NCBI GenBank assembly: GCA_025360125.1
Contig: JANYCU010000048.1
Coordinates: 1-45,903 of the forward strand
From: Armatimonadota bacterium
GTDB taxonomy: Bacteria > Armatimonadota > Fimbriimonadia > Fimbriimonadales > Fimbriimonadaceae
DNA: 45,903 nt
Direction: 5' to 3'
Positions 2,563 to 44,206 of this stretch are shown here, piece by piece; position 1 is the stretch's first letter, and every line of letters begins with the position of its first letter. The notes under the pieces are model-generated. The model made no database searches, was not told where the DNA came from, and was given only the letters and a program-made list of their open reading frames with translations. The position numbers and the translations under genes were made by a program.

Positions 2563-3789
2563 TCAAGTTAGTTCAAGTGGCTTTGGGTCAATAACGATTG
2601 ACGTCGTCATATCGGCCAGCACGTTCGTCACCGAGCGCATTCGTGCGATGATCCAATCAACAGTCAGGAGGATGGGCAAAATCTCGGGCGTGAAGCCTAG
2701 GGTGCCAAGAATGACGGCTAGCGAAATGAGGCCAGCTTCTGGCACGCCAGCGATTCCCAGTGCCGTCAACACACAAAGCAATGCAACGGAGATTTGCGTA
2801 CCTATGGTGAGGTGCAGGCCAAGCCCTTGGGCGACGATCATGACTCCAAAGGCTTCGTAGAGGAGGATTCCGTCGTTATTGAGGTTTGTTCCGATGCAGG
2901 CACCCATTCGAGAACTTTCCTTTGAAATGCCGAGGCTGTCGAGAGCTTTCAGGGTCAACGGCAAAGACGCGAGGCTGCTGTTGATGCCAAAGGCATTCAT
3001 GACGGGCTCGGCAGCGGCCTTAAAGAAGTCTTTTAGCGTAACTCGTTTGGTCAATATGATCCATGCGGGATAGACGATGAACGCCTGAATGCATAAGCCG
3101 AGGATTACATATCCGACATAGGGAATCAGGCCCGTGAGGTGGGTGAAACCGTTGTCGCCCACGCTTTTCGCCACGACGGCAAGAACCGCGATCGGTGTCA
3201 GCATCACCAGCCAGGTGATGATCTTCTCCGAAATCTTGTAACCACCGTGAATCACCCTCTCCCAGTCGGTCACCCACGGCTCGTTCAGATTCTTGAAGCT
3301 TCGCAGTGCACAGCCGATGAGAACAGCAAGAAACGCAACGGCAAGGATGTTGTTCGAGCTGAATGGCTCGACAAGGCTAGTAGGCAGAAGGTTATGAATA
3401 AAGCCGACCAAGTCAACCGTGTGCCCCTTCGCCTGCGACAGGAGGCCCGTGTCGGGCACTTTAGCACCCAGATCGAGGTGTTTGCCGGGCTGAAACACGT
3501 TGGCCATCGTGATGCCGATGGTGGCCGCGATAGTGGTGTTGATCGCAATGACGCCAAGAAACCTTCGCGCGGATTTCCATTGGACCTCAGACGACACGAT
3601 GGCGTCGAGAATGGCAAAGAAGAGGAGGGGGGCGGCTACTGCCTTGATAAGATCAATATAGAGCTTGCCTACCTCGCCGAGCGGCTTAGCGCTGATATGC
3701 TGGCTTTGGCAGTAGAGGCCGATAAGGATGCCAACAATGATGGAGCCGATGATGAACGCGGTCGAGCGAATTGCTTTGCCGGCAATCAT
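2563..3789 (-). CDS. Sodium/proton:dicarboxylate (or amino acid) symporter, DAACS family
   Basis: This 408-residue protein has the length and hydropathy of the GltP/DctA family (PF00375), which imports dicarboxylates or acidic/neutral amino acids with Na+ or H+. Family landmarks are visible: a serine-rich re-entrant loop (NSSLASLPLTLKAL), the TM7 motif NNDGILLYEA in place of NMDGTxLY, HP2 GIAGVPEAG, and the TM8 motif DWIIARMRSVTNVLAD. In TM8 the residue aligned with the Asp that binds the substrate amino group in GltPh-type amino acid carriers (D394) is Ala, while the following Arg, Asn and Asp are kept. This resembles dicarboxylate carriers more than glutamate carriers, so a C4-dicarboxylate or other non-amino-acid substrate is my inference. 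The gene lies on the minus strand downstream of rpoC but is separated from it by a terminator. Confidence 0.88.
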   Translation of the reverse strand: MIAGKAIRSTAFIIGSIIVGILIGLYCQSQHISAKPLGEVGKLYIDLIKAVAAPLLFFAILDAIVSSEVQWKSARRFLGVIAINTTIAATIGITMANVFQPGKHLDLGAKVPDTGLLSQAKGHTVDLVGFIHNLLPTSLVEPFSSNNILAVAFLAVLIGCALRSFKNLNEPWVTDWERVIHGGYKISEKIITWLVMLTPIAVLAVVAKSVGDNGFTHLTGLIPYVGYVILGLCIQAFIVYPAWIILTKRVTLKDFFKAAAEPVMNAFGINSSLASLPLTLKALDSLGISKESSRMGACIGTNLNNDGILLYEAFGVMIVAQGLGLHLTIGTQISVALLCVLTALGIAGVPEAGLISLAVILGTLGFTPEILPILLTVDWIIARMRSVTNVLADMTTSIVIDPKPLELT

Positions 3790-32871: not shown

Positions 32872-34190
32872 TCGTCCTGCTCCAAAATATTTAGGTCTCT
32901 CTGGAATATTCTCGGCAGAAGGAGATCTCTTAAATCTGAAAGAGTTCTGGACTCTTTATCCGCTTGCCTAGCTCGCAGCAACAATGGACTAACTATACTT
33001 CCGAATAAGTCAAGAATAGTTCTCGCTGGTTCAACAGTTTCAAACCGAGACAGAGCTTCAACTTGGACTCGTTGACGACCGCTTGAACCGCTCATACTTT
33101 GAATTGCGAATTCCTTTAACTTGTCATGTCTTGCGAGTAGGTAAGCGTATTCCCGCGGAAACGGATCTTTTGGTTGGAAGACAATAAATTCCGTAGAGCC
33201 CCATCCAACTTCTCCATTTTGAAGAAAATCTACGTAAGCAGCTTTTCCATTCTCCAGGCACGGCGTGATCCGAGCAAGCAAGGTATCGCCATTTATGAAC
33301 TTGGTGCCCGAAGTGAATTCCCGACTAATCGTTTTCGTGGGACTTTGACCCTGAGTAGGCGTATTAGACATGTCTAGATAGGCCGAGATTTGTCCTTTTG
33401 CCAGTTTTCGAGGTGGATTGATTTCCAGAATATCGTGTATGGCTCTGGCGGCCCAGCCACTTGGTATCATGCCCATCATCGACTCTTGGAGTGAGTCAGG
33501 GAATAGCACGTCGATTTCGGATGGGAGATCGGTTGGTCGTCCCTCGGCCTTTGCATGAACGGGATCGAAGTCGATGAACCAGGATTTGAAGAGGGCTCGC
33601 GCCATTTCTTCCAATGTCGCGCTCATTTTGCGATTTAGCTCGATCTTGTCATCGAGGGTGCCGAGGATGTGAGCAATTCGTTTTTGCTCGTCAAGGGATT
33701 TCCAAACAATTGGAATTCGTCGAATAATTCCCTCATTGAGCGATGGCATGGTTGAACCTGCGGCATGCTGCATCATCCATCCCTTATGCCTGCTGGTTTG
33801 TAGTTGATAAGCAATAAACCTAGGCACGCATTCATTGTGATTCAACCGAACGCGGATTCCATCGGAGCCTAGGAAATAGCCTCTCTCGCTCTCCTGAACT
33901 TGTGCACTTCTTTCAACGGAACCCTTCCTACCAAAAACAATGTCGCCCGGTTCAAGCAGATACTCAGGCATTCGCAAATATACTGATTCGTCAACTAAAG
34001 GAGTGTCATGCCTCAATCGGATTCGACCGTAACCTACCTCTCCCACGGAAATAACCGGCACGCCGGATATTGTATATTCAGAGGCTTTAAGCTTGGTACC
34101 AAATGGTCCTGTCTTGATTTCTCCCCCATACTTATCGATCAAGTCACCCAAAGTTTTAACGCCATTGAGGTCCGCCGCTGTAGTATTCAT
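32868..34190 (-). CDS. hsdS: Type I restriction enzyme, specificity subunit S
   Basis: Recognises the two halves of the DNA target. The 440-residue protein has two target-recognition domains (about residues 10-165 and 245-395), each followed by a conserved helical spacer. The first ends [25 protein letters not shown] and the second ends near [16 protein letters not shown]. The segment [17 protein letters not shown] is typical of this S-subunit type. It overlaps hsdM and the HEPN-like gene by four bases each. Intact. The target cannot be read from sequence. Confidence 0.95.
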
Positions 34191-35730
34191 GAGGTTAAAA
34201 AGAACCCTAGCGAGGTTAGGTTTGCTCGGATCTCCTCATCAACTGCGGCAGCTTCCTTGATTTGGTCGGAAAGTTGGCCTGTGAGGCGTGTCATTTTTTG
34301 AGCAAATGGCTCAACATCCTCTTCCTGCGCCTGGGCGCCAACGTAGCGACCAGGCGTGAGGACGAAGCCGTGGCTCTTGACCTCTTCGATCGGAGCCGAG
34401 TAACAAAAGCCGGATATGTTTTCGTAGACTCCTGCGTTACCTTCACCTCGCCAAGCGTGATAGGTGTCAGTTATGCGTTCGATTTCCTCGTCAGTTAACT
34501 CTCTATGGGTCCGATCCACGAGTTGACCCATTTTGCGGGCATCAATGAAGAGAATGTGGCCGCGGCGGTCTCGGAACTTATGATTCTTTTTGTCTCGGGC
34601 CAAGAACCAAAGGCATACGGGAATTTGAACGCTATAGAATAGTTGACCGGGCATCGCAACCATACAATCGACAAGGTCGGCCTCGACAATCTTTTGCCGA
34701 ATCTCACCTTCGCCAGATTGACTACTGGACATCGATCCGTTGGCGAGGACCAAGCCAGCAACGCCGGTCGGATTAAGCTTATGGATCATGTGCTGAATCC
34801 AGCCGTAGTTTGCGTTTCCTGCAGGCGGCGTGCCGTAAACCCAACGTTTGTCATCTTTTAGCCTTTCACCGCCCCAATCGCTGATGTTAAAAGGTGGGTT
34901 GGCGATGACGAAGTCAGCCTTGAGGTCGGGGTGCTGATCGTTGAGGAAGGTGTCGCCGTGCTTGATATTGCCATCGATGCTGCGGATGGCGAGGTTCATC
35001 TTGGCGAGCCGCCAGGTGGTGTAGTTGCTCTCTTGGCCATAGATGCTGAGGTCGTCGAGTTTGCCGCCGTGGGCAACGATGAACTCTTCGCTTTGAACGA
35101 ACATGCCGCTTGAACCGCAGCACGGGTCGTAGACACGCCCTTTATATGGTTCGAGCATTCGACAAGGAGTTTTACGACGCAACGCGGCGTGTAGAATTCG
35201 CCCCCTCGTTTGCCTTCGGCGCTGGCGAATTGGGAGAGGAAGTATTCGTAGACTCGACCGAGGACGTCTTTGGAACGGGAGGCTTTGTCGCCAACCTTTA
35301 TATTAGAGACGGTATCGATGAGTTGACCGAGTTTGGTTTTGTCCAGACCTTGCCGAGCATAGTCCTTGGGCAGGACGCCTTTGAGGCTCGTATTGTCTCG
35401 CTCAATACCAGCCATGGCGTCGTCGACGATTTGGCCGATTGTTGGCTGTTTCGCTTGAGCTTTAAGGTTTTGCCAACGGGCTTCGACGGGCACCCAGAAA
35501 ACGTTGATGGCTCGGTATTCGTCGGGGTCTTCCGGGTCGGCTCCGGCAAGGATTTCACTTTCGAGTTTTGCGTGTTGTTCTTCGAAGGCGTCGGAGATGT
35601 ATTTGAGGAAGAGGAGGCCGAGCACGACGTGCTTGTATTCCGAGGCGTCCATGCTTCCTCGTAGTTGATCGGCGGTTTTCCAGAGTTCCGCTTCGAATCC
35701 AATATTTGCTCCGTTTGTTTCTTTGGCCAT
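34187..35730 (-). pseudogene. hsdM: Type I restriction enzyme, methyltransferase subunit M, frameshifted
   Basis: Two overlapping frames together make one HsdM of about 514 residues. The first (from ATG 35730) gives the N-terminal helical domain up to [16 protein letters not shown]; the second resumes [18 protein letters not shown] (SAM-binding motif I) and contains NPPFNISDW (catalytic motif IV for N6-adenine). The break is at about 35157-35160, where the minus strand reads GTCGAATGCTC and one additional A (GTCGAAATGCTC) would restore the frame. It is either a real one-base deletion or a sequencing error in a short A run. If real, modification and hence restriction are lost. First gene of the operon hsdM-hsdS-HEPN-hsdR. 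Confidence 0.88.
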
Positions 35731-40001: not shown

Positions 40002-40541
40002 TTACTTGCTCTTAAACTCCTTCACGAATTTCAGAACGTTTTCTGCGGCTGGCCTAACCTTGTAATCATCAAGCGAGGTCGCAAAAGTGATCTTGCCTGC
40101 ATTGCCGACCACAATCGTCGCGGGCTTCAGATATCCCTGGGGATACTTGCCAGCATAGAGCGCGGCAAGCTTCCCTTCTGGGTCAGACAAAAACACGAAC
40201 TGTGGGCCAAGTTTTTCCGCTTCTCGCATCTTCTTAAGCTTATCTGCGGGTTCGTATGATACGGCGTAGACAGTTGCTTTCGCCGTCGCGAGGTCCTGAG
40301 ACAACTTGCCAAGCTCTCCGAGCTGGCGGTGGCAATAGGGTCACCAAATGGCACGATAGAACACGAGTACAACTGGCTTTTTGCCATATTGCTTGCTCAG
40401 GTCAACGTCGTTTCCGTCTTCGTCTTTTACGATGACGGACCTGGCCGCTTTCCCGATCCACTCGGTCCCATGGTCGACAACTGCCTTTGGTGGCTCTTGG
40501 TTAAGCAAGAGCGAACAGGCAAACATGCAAGTCAGAGACAT
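40002..40541 (-). CDS. Putative selenocysteine-containing peroxiredoxin/thioredoxin-fold protein
   Basis: Reading from ATG 40541 gives a short signal peptide-like start (MSLTCMFACSLLLNQ), a thioredoxin-fold strand KKPVVLVFYRAIW, then TGA (40341-40343), then PYCHRQLGELGKLSQ in the same frame, and on to VLKFVKEFKSK (stop at 40002). The TGA sits exactly at the first Cys of the AhpC/TSA-type motif WCPYC. Translating it as Sec gives FYRAIW-U-PYC, and a 179-residue protein with U67 and C70. A SECIS-like hairpin follows at the right distance. This is the expected picture of a bacterial selenoprotein with Sec at the peroxidatic site. The alternative is a simple TGC/TGT to TGA nonsense mutation. Sec machinery is not in the window. 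Confidence 0.75.
40306..40343 (-). promoter_or_regulatory. Candidate bacterial SECIS element
   Basis: Directly after the in-frame TGA, the minus strand folds as TTGCC (40331-40335)/GGCAA (40306-40310) outside and AGCTC (40320-40324)/GAGCT (40312-40316) inside, with apical loop GGA. The loop starts with G, 21 bases after the UGA, within the 16-37 base range known for bSECIS. Confidence 0.6.

Positions 40542-42556: not shown

Positions 42557-44206
<1,650 letters not shown>

Follow-up and report, generated by a model that had tools for sequence, protein, structure and literature searches.

A probable peroxiredoxin-like UxxC selenoprotein with a predicted thioredoxin-type active site in a Fimbriimonas-like member of the Armatimonadota

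Introduction

The question raised by this locus is whether a TGA codon that interrupts a thioredoxin-fold reading frame stops translation or is read as selenocysteine (Sec) and, in the latter case, what kind of active site that residue would belong to. The frame lies in a contig of 45,903 nucleotides (JANYCU010000048.1; the window, meaning the whole stretch of DNA that was analysed) from an Armatimonadota genome of 4.13 Mb that is 98.6% complete (G000).

Results and discussion

Reading frame and UGA codon

Translated on the minus strand from 40541 to 40002 with TGA read as U, the locus is one frame of 179 codons, MSLTCM...VVLVFYRAIWUPYCHRQLGELGK...EFKSK followed by the stop, and its sole internal stop is the TGA at 40341-40343, codon 67. 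The features of the gene are as follows.

40002-40541, minus strand: predicted Prx-like selenoprotein gene, 179 residues plus a TAA stop (40002-40004), with Sec67 (translation with TGA as U; PF00578; AlphaFold)
40341-40343, minus strand: UGA, the predicted Sec codon, residue 67, first position of UPYC (in-frame, single internal stop; TGA in a 72%-identical orthologue; Cys in others)
40332-40334, minus strand: Cys70, predicted to pair with Sec67 in UxxC (aligned with PDB chains 5epf and 2cx3; invariant in 47 homologues)

A reading made earlier from the sequence alone had described a thioredoxin-fold frame broken by this TGA only, without giving the strand, and the translation bears it out. The same reading expected gene callers to split the gene with a false TTG start at 40304, and a TTG open reading frame at 40002-40304 (100 aa) is indeed found in the ORF list; the gene is of a type that annotation pipelines will split. 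Among the 26 AhpC/TSA matches in the genome, this gene is the only one with an internal stop, a TGA, and the position of codon 67 is that of the first Cys of FYRGxWCPYC in relatives.

The genome also has the means of decoding such a codon. SelA (E=1.9e-107), SelB (E=1.7e-102, the remaining matches to the SelB model falling under the cut-off) and SelD (E=5.0e-107) are present, SelD itself having an in-frame TGA near the N-terminus in the motif CAGUAAKLG. A tRNA-Sec scored 68 bits (cut-off 47), and ARAGORN called it tRNA-SeC with anticodon tca (UCA). The genes selA, selB, selD and selC (tRNA-Sec) lie on four separate contigs (C44, C10, C56 and C26; loci L001, L002, L009 and L011). The sequence-only reading had made its Sec assignment depend on this machinery, all of which was thus recovered.

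Sec and Cys forms among relatives

A scan of 61 near genomes gave G002, of the same genus, as the best match beyond the organism's own genome, at 72% identity; its orthologue has one TGA, at the same codon as Sec67. A third species of the genus, G010, has a Cys form, WCPYC, with 45% identity, and no SelA was seen there. When 291 genomes of the phylum were scanned, the closest clade included Sec forms in G000, G002, G113, G079, G119, G115 and G148 and Cys forms in G010, G076 and G077. SelA was found in all six Sec-form genomes of this clade with a completeness of at least 87% and in none of the three Cys-form genomes; it was also not found in the Sec-form genomes G113 (73% complete) and G066, both of which are 72-73% complete. 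The variation between U and C at the Sec column that the earlier reading had proposed to look for exists among homologues, with UxxC at L052, L054, L075, L083, L124, L138, L141 and L142 (L075, L083 and L124 being beyond the phylum) and CxxC in the remaining ones.

In a tree of the family the Sec forms cluster, with 6 label changes versus 10.4 in shuffles, most branches being weak. The two Sec forms of the genus and the Cys form of G010 fall in one group (support 91/93), which is compatible with a change from Sec to Cys alongside the loss of SelA, or with the reverse. The genus is a natural comparison: two of its species have a Sec form and SelA, and a third has a Cys form and no SelA.

Several other relatives were noticed in the course of this work. 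Beyond the closest clade, the phylum has further UxxC-type proteins at L143 1624, L144 1621 and L151 1618 (WUPNC, WUANC and WUPVC). At L033 (UGA at 1576) lies a remoter selenoprotein of the same family, in which the motif is FYRGVWUSFC and the candidate hairpin differs. A Deltaproteobacteria MAG (L075) has a pair of Prx-like UxxC selenoprotein genes separated by about 0.8 kb, with UGA at 3156 and 3928, and the first of these has a different candidate hairpin with its loop at 16 nt.

A hairpin downstream of the UGA

The RNA from the UGA onward is UGACCCUAUUGCCACCGCCAGCUCGGAGAGCUUGGCAAG, in which two structural features were recognized.

40312-40324, minus strand: apical hairpin of a putative bSECIS, AGCUC-GGA-GAGCU, with its loop at 40317-40319 (comparison; both-side changes at three of five pairs)
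40306-40335, minus strand: extended putative SECIS region, lower stem UUGCCA (40330-40335) with UGGCAA (40306-40311) (minimum-energy fold)

The bSECIS model asks for an apical loop of 3-9 nt, a stem of 4-16 bp, a G in the first two loop positions and a loop 16-37 nt after the UGA (PMC13188914). The hairpin here has a stem of 5 bp and a GGA loop starting 21 nt after the UGA, so that the bSECIS geometry described in the sequence-only reading is present. Nevertheless, a bSECIS-like stem of at least 5 bp follows 34% of all TGAs in the window, and the fold z-score ranged from -0.9 to -2.1 with the span used, single-sequence folding energies being uninformative. In a single sequence the hairpin is within chance, and it is the comparison that carries the case.

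The five Watson-Crick pairs were present in all seven Sec homologues of the first set, and in seven of nine once two remote ones were added, whereas all five pairs were formed in one of 84 Cys homologues, where one of them is G-U (Fisher p = 1e-9 for 7/7 or 3e-8 for 7/9, values that are rough and not exact probabilities because the sequences are related). In an enlarged set of ten Sec sequences nine were fully paired, 96% of cells pair and both members change at three of the five pairs; with the partner shifted by 1-3 columns, pairing was at most 46%. The 21-nt hairpin is not formed in the Sec homologue L141, nor in the remote L033 and the second L075 copy. Between this gene and its G002 orthologue the extended region is nearly identical, and the codons right after the UGA that encode unchanged residues are identical in 10 of 13 cases versus 41 of 111 elsewhere (p = 0.007).

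Two other explanations of the TGA and the hairpin have to be weighed against these data. If the TGA were a real stop or a sequencing error, the locus would be a pseudogene or two ORFs, and it is true that gene-caller lists contain only fragments of it and that the hairpin alone is within chance. We give this next to no probability, since the same TGA is present in another species, whose orthologue conserves the remaining frame at 72% identity, and in several further genera, the Sec machinery is in the genome, and the hairpin is conserved in TGA forms only; on the independent TGA in other genomes we reject pseudogene and error alike. It is conceivable too that the hairpin is a by-product of the peptide QLGEL or QLGQL, whose codons would be prone to pair, Sec being inserted through some other signal. 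The amino acids dictate two of the five pairs, and about 8-10% of random synonymous recodings of the same peptide yield all five. Against this, Cys homologues with similar peptides seldom pair, and pairs 21-31 (Gln third base with Leu first base) and 22-30 (Leu first base with Glu or Gln third base) covary at synonymous positions, for which protein constraint is no explanation; we therefore consider a by-product highly improbable.

With the machinery in the genome, the TGA kept in the orthologue and the hairpin specific to Sec forms, the in-frame UGA 67 very probably encodes selenocysteine, as had been proposed from the sequence alone.

Active site and proposed mechanism

The protein matches PF00578 (AhpC-TSA) over residues 29-153 with E=3.7e-25 and 88.7 bits against a cut-off of 26. 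Among the fold matches listed for its confident AlphaFold model (pLDDT 92.6), PrxQ/Bcp and AhpE type peroxiredoxins were the best, with Bcp4 at Z 22.8 and an rmsd of 1.9 over 152 aligned residues; a Foldseek search agreed with this. In sequence alignments to 5epf and 2cx3, FYRAIWUPYC aligns on FYPAAMTPGC and FFPAAFSPVC, which pairs Sec67 with the Thr or Ser of PxxxTxxC, Cys70 with the peroxidatic Cys and Arg63 with the catalytic Pro. In the profile of the family, the position of the catalytic peroxiredoxin Arg is taken by the Pro of a vPAvFV segment, here Pro139, and this is the site of the ResA Pro. The Pro, Thr and Arg of peroxiredoxins activate the peroxidatic Cys. Of the signature of true peroxiredoxins, PxxxTxxC with a catalytic Arg, the Cys alone is kept here. 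The assignment of Sec to the peroxidatic position in the sequence-only reading is therefore not supported, because Sec67 falls on the Thr or Ser, Cys70 on the peroxidatic Cys, and Arg63 and Pro139 on the catalytic Pro and Arg positions. Judged from these alignments, the predicted Sec takes the attacking place, nearest the N-terminus, in a CxxC motif of thioredoxin type, and the predicted active site combines a thioredoxin-type redox pair with a peroxiredoxin scaffold.

The best explanation of the whole, in which we have high confidence, is a thioredoxin-fold, Prx-like UxxC selenoprotein with a SelB-decoded Sec67 and thioredoxin-type chemistry; its decoding is well supported by comparison, and we infer its chemistry, substrate and location. 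SelB and Sec-tRNA(UCA) would read UGA 67 as Sec, directed by the hairpin just downstream. Most likely as in a thioredoxin-type CxxC enzyme, the Sec67 selenolate would then attack a disulfide or a peroxide as its oxidised substrate. Resolution of the intermediate by Cys70 would give a Sec-Cys selenenylsulfide, and the enzyme would be re-reduced by a thiol donor that is probably outside the cytoplasm. The protein is thus probably a thiol-disulfide or peroxide-reducing oxidoreductase, with Sec67 as the predicted attacking and Cys70 as the predicted resolving residue.

Because the overall fold is peroxiredoxin-like, the Sec protein may have peroxidase activity. Perhaps the Sec is decoded and the protein is nonetheless a true peroxidase, with Cys70 peroxidatic and Sec67 resolving, as the alignment of Cys70 with the peroxidatic Cys and the peroxiredoxins among the top structural matches would suggest. 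We regard this as unlikely, given that the activating Pro, Thr and Arg are replaced by Arg63, Sec67 and Pro139, that the first position of UxxC is the usual Sec place for attacking residues, and that the literature reads the Prx-like UxxC family as thioredoxin-like (PMC1088965).

Comparison with known families

A 2005 paper on the Sargasso Sea described Prx-like proteins whose motif is a thioredoxin-like UXXC and not TXXU (PMC1088965). The Prx-like thiol:disulfide oxidoreductase or Prx-like 1 family shares with our protein PF00578, UxxC, a distance from true peroxiredoxins and the occurrence of both Sec and Cys forms (PMC1088965, PMC2398784, PMC13188914). The reference for the family is the Geobacter protein WP_010940744.1, and the window protein was placed by domain, motif and published description, having PF00578 over the cut-off and UPYC at 67-70 in place of TxxC or TxxU. 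On these characters the predicted protein is one of an already known Prx-like UxxC selenoprotein type, and what is new is this member, which differs in its host, a Fimbriimonas-like member of the Armatimonadota.

Other families are less close. Sec-containing peroxiredoxins (Prx, TxxU) share the fold and the Pfam family, but their Sec replaces the peroxidatic Cys, while that of the window protein would be at the Thr position (UxxC). The best NCBIfam match was the SelL-related redox protein NF040769 at 41.9 bits, although the cut-off of 120 bits was reached neither by the window protein nor by five relatives tested, and no NCBIfam model matched the window protein at its cut-off. ResA/TlpA-type thiol-disulfide oxidoreductases share WCPxC at the same place and a Pro at the cis-Pro position, yet the profile and fold of the window protein are nearer to the PrxQ/AhpE types. 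A partial literature search for selenoproteins in Fimbriimonas or Armatimonadota returned only a Planctomycetes genome paper, which is no proof of novelty. The present work adds a well-supported selenoprotein from the phylum Armatimonadota, which the selenoproteome papers found do not discuss.

N-terminus and location

40476-40541, minus strand: short hydrophobic N-terminus that may be an export signal, though a weak one (residues 2-13 with hydropathy 2.0; low pLDDT)

The N-terminus of the window copy, MSLTCMFACSLLLNQ, has no basic n-region. The orthologues at L052, L054 and L024 have clear hydrophobic stretches at the start, whereas in the window copy and G002 the stretch is shorter, with no basic residues before it. 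From these leaders, export of the family is likely and export of the window copy uncertain. The signal-peptide-like start and extracytoplasmic role suggested earlier are plausible through the stronger leaders of those three orthologues, but the signal is weak in this copy.

Retention of the Sec trait

A 2006 survey considered formate dehydrogenase important for keeping the Sec trait and observed Sec-SelD, and mostly selenouridine, in Sec-decoding bacteria without it (PMC1794560). In our genome the model for Sec-formate dehydrogenase gave a partial match of 78 bits without a TGA (cut-off 666), and selenouridine synthase had no match to its model. With the models used, the genome thus has Sec-SelD and neither of the other two, a combination less expected from that survey. 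The two absences are to be taken as a lead, because genome completeness is 98.6% and the models may miss divergent genes. It is possible, and we offer it tentatively as somewhat short of an even chance, that this lineage keeps the Sec pathway without Sec-formate dehydrogenase or selenouridine, essentially for SelD and a few possibly exported redox selenoproteins, and that within one genus the Sec and Cys forms have switched with the gain or loss of SelA. Having Sec-SelD without the other two makes retention of the trait in this genome a testable question.

Genomic neighbourhood

No neighbourhood is conserved with G002, where 0 of 11 neighbouring ORFs tested were found near the orthologue. Downstream of the gene, on the same strand, is an ORF of 617 codons with no Pfam match, and upstream, on the plus strand, is the gene of a protein that has a ricin-B-type lectin domain. 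The neighbourhood suggests no operon partner for the UGA-containing gene. In the window a GroEL gene (42557-44191) is found some 2 kb upstream of this gene, and in G010 one is found some 3.7 kb downstream of the Cys form (L133); the G002 stretch has none. The proximity of GroEL in the window and in G010 is probably a coincidence. Elsewhere in the window, at 34187-35730, a type I restriction-modification HsdM is split over the overlapping frames 34996-35730 and 34187-35182, possibly by a frameshift.
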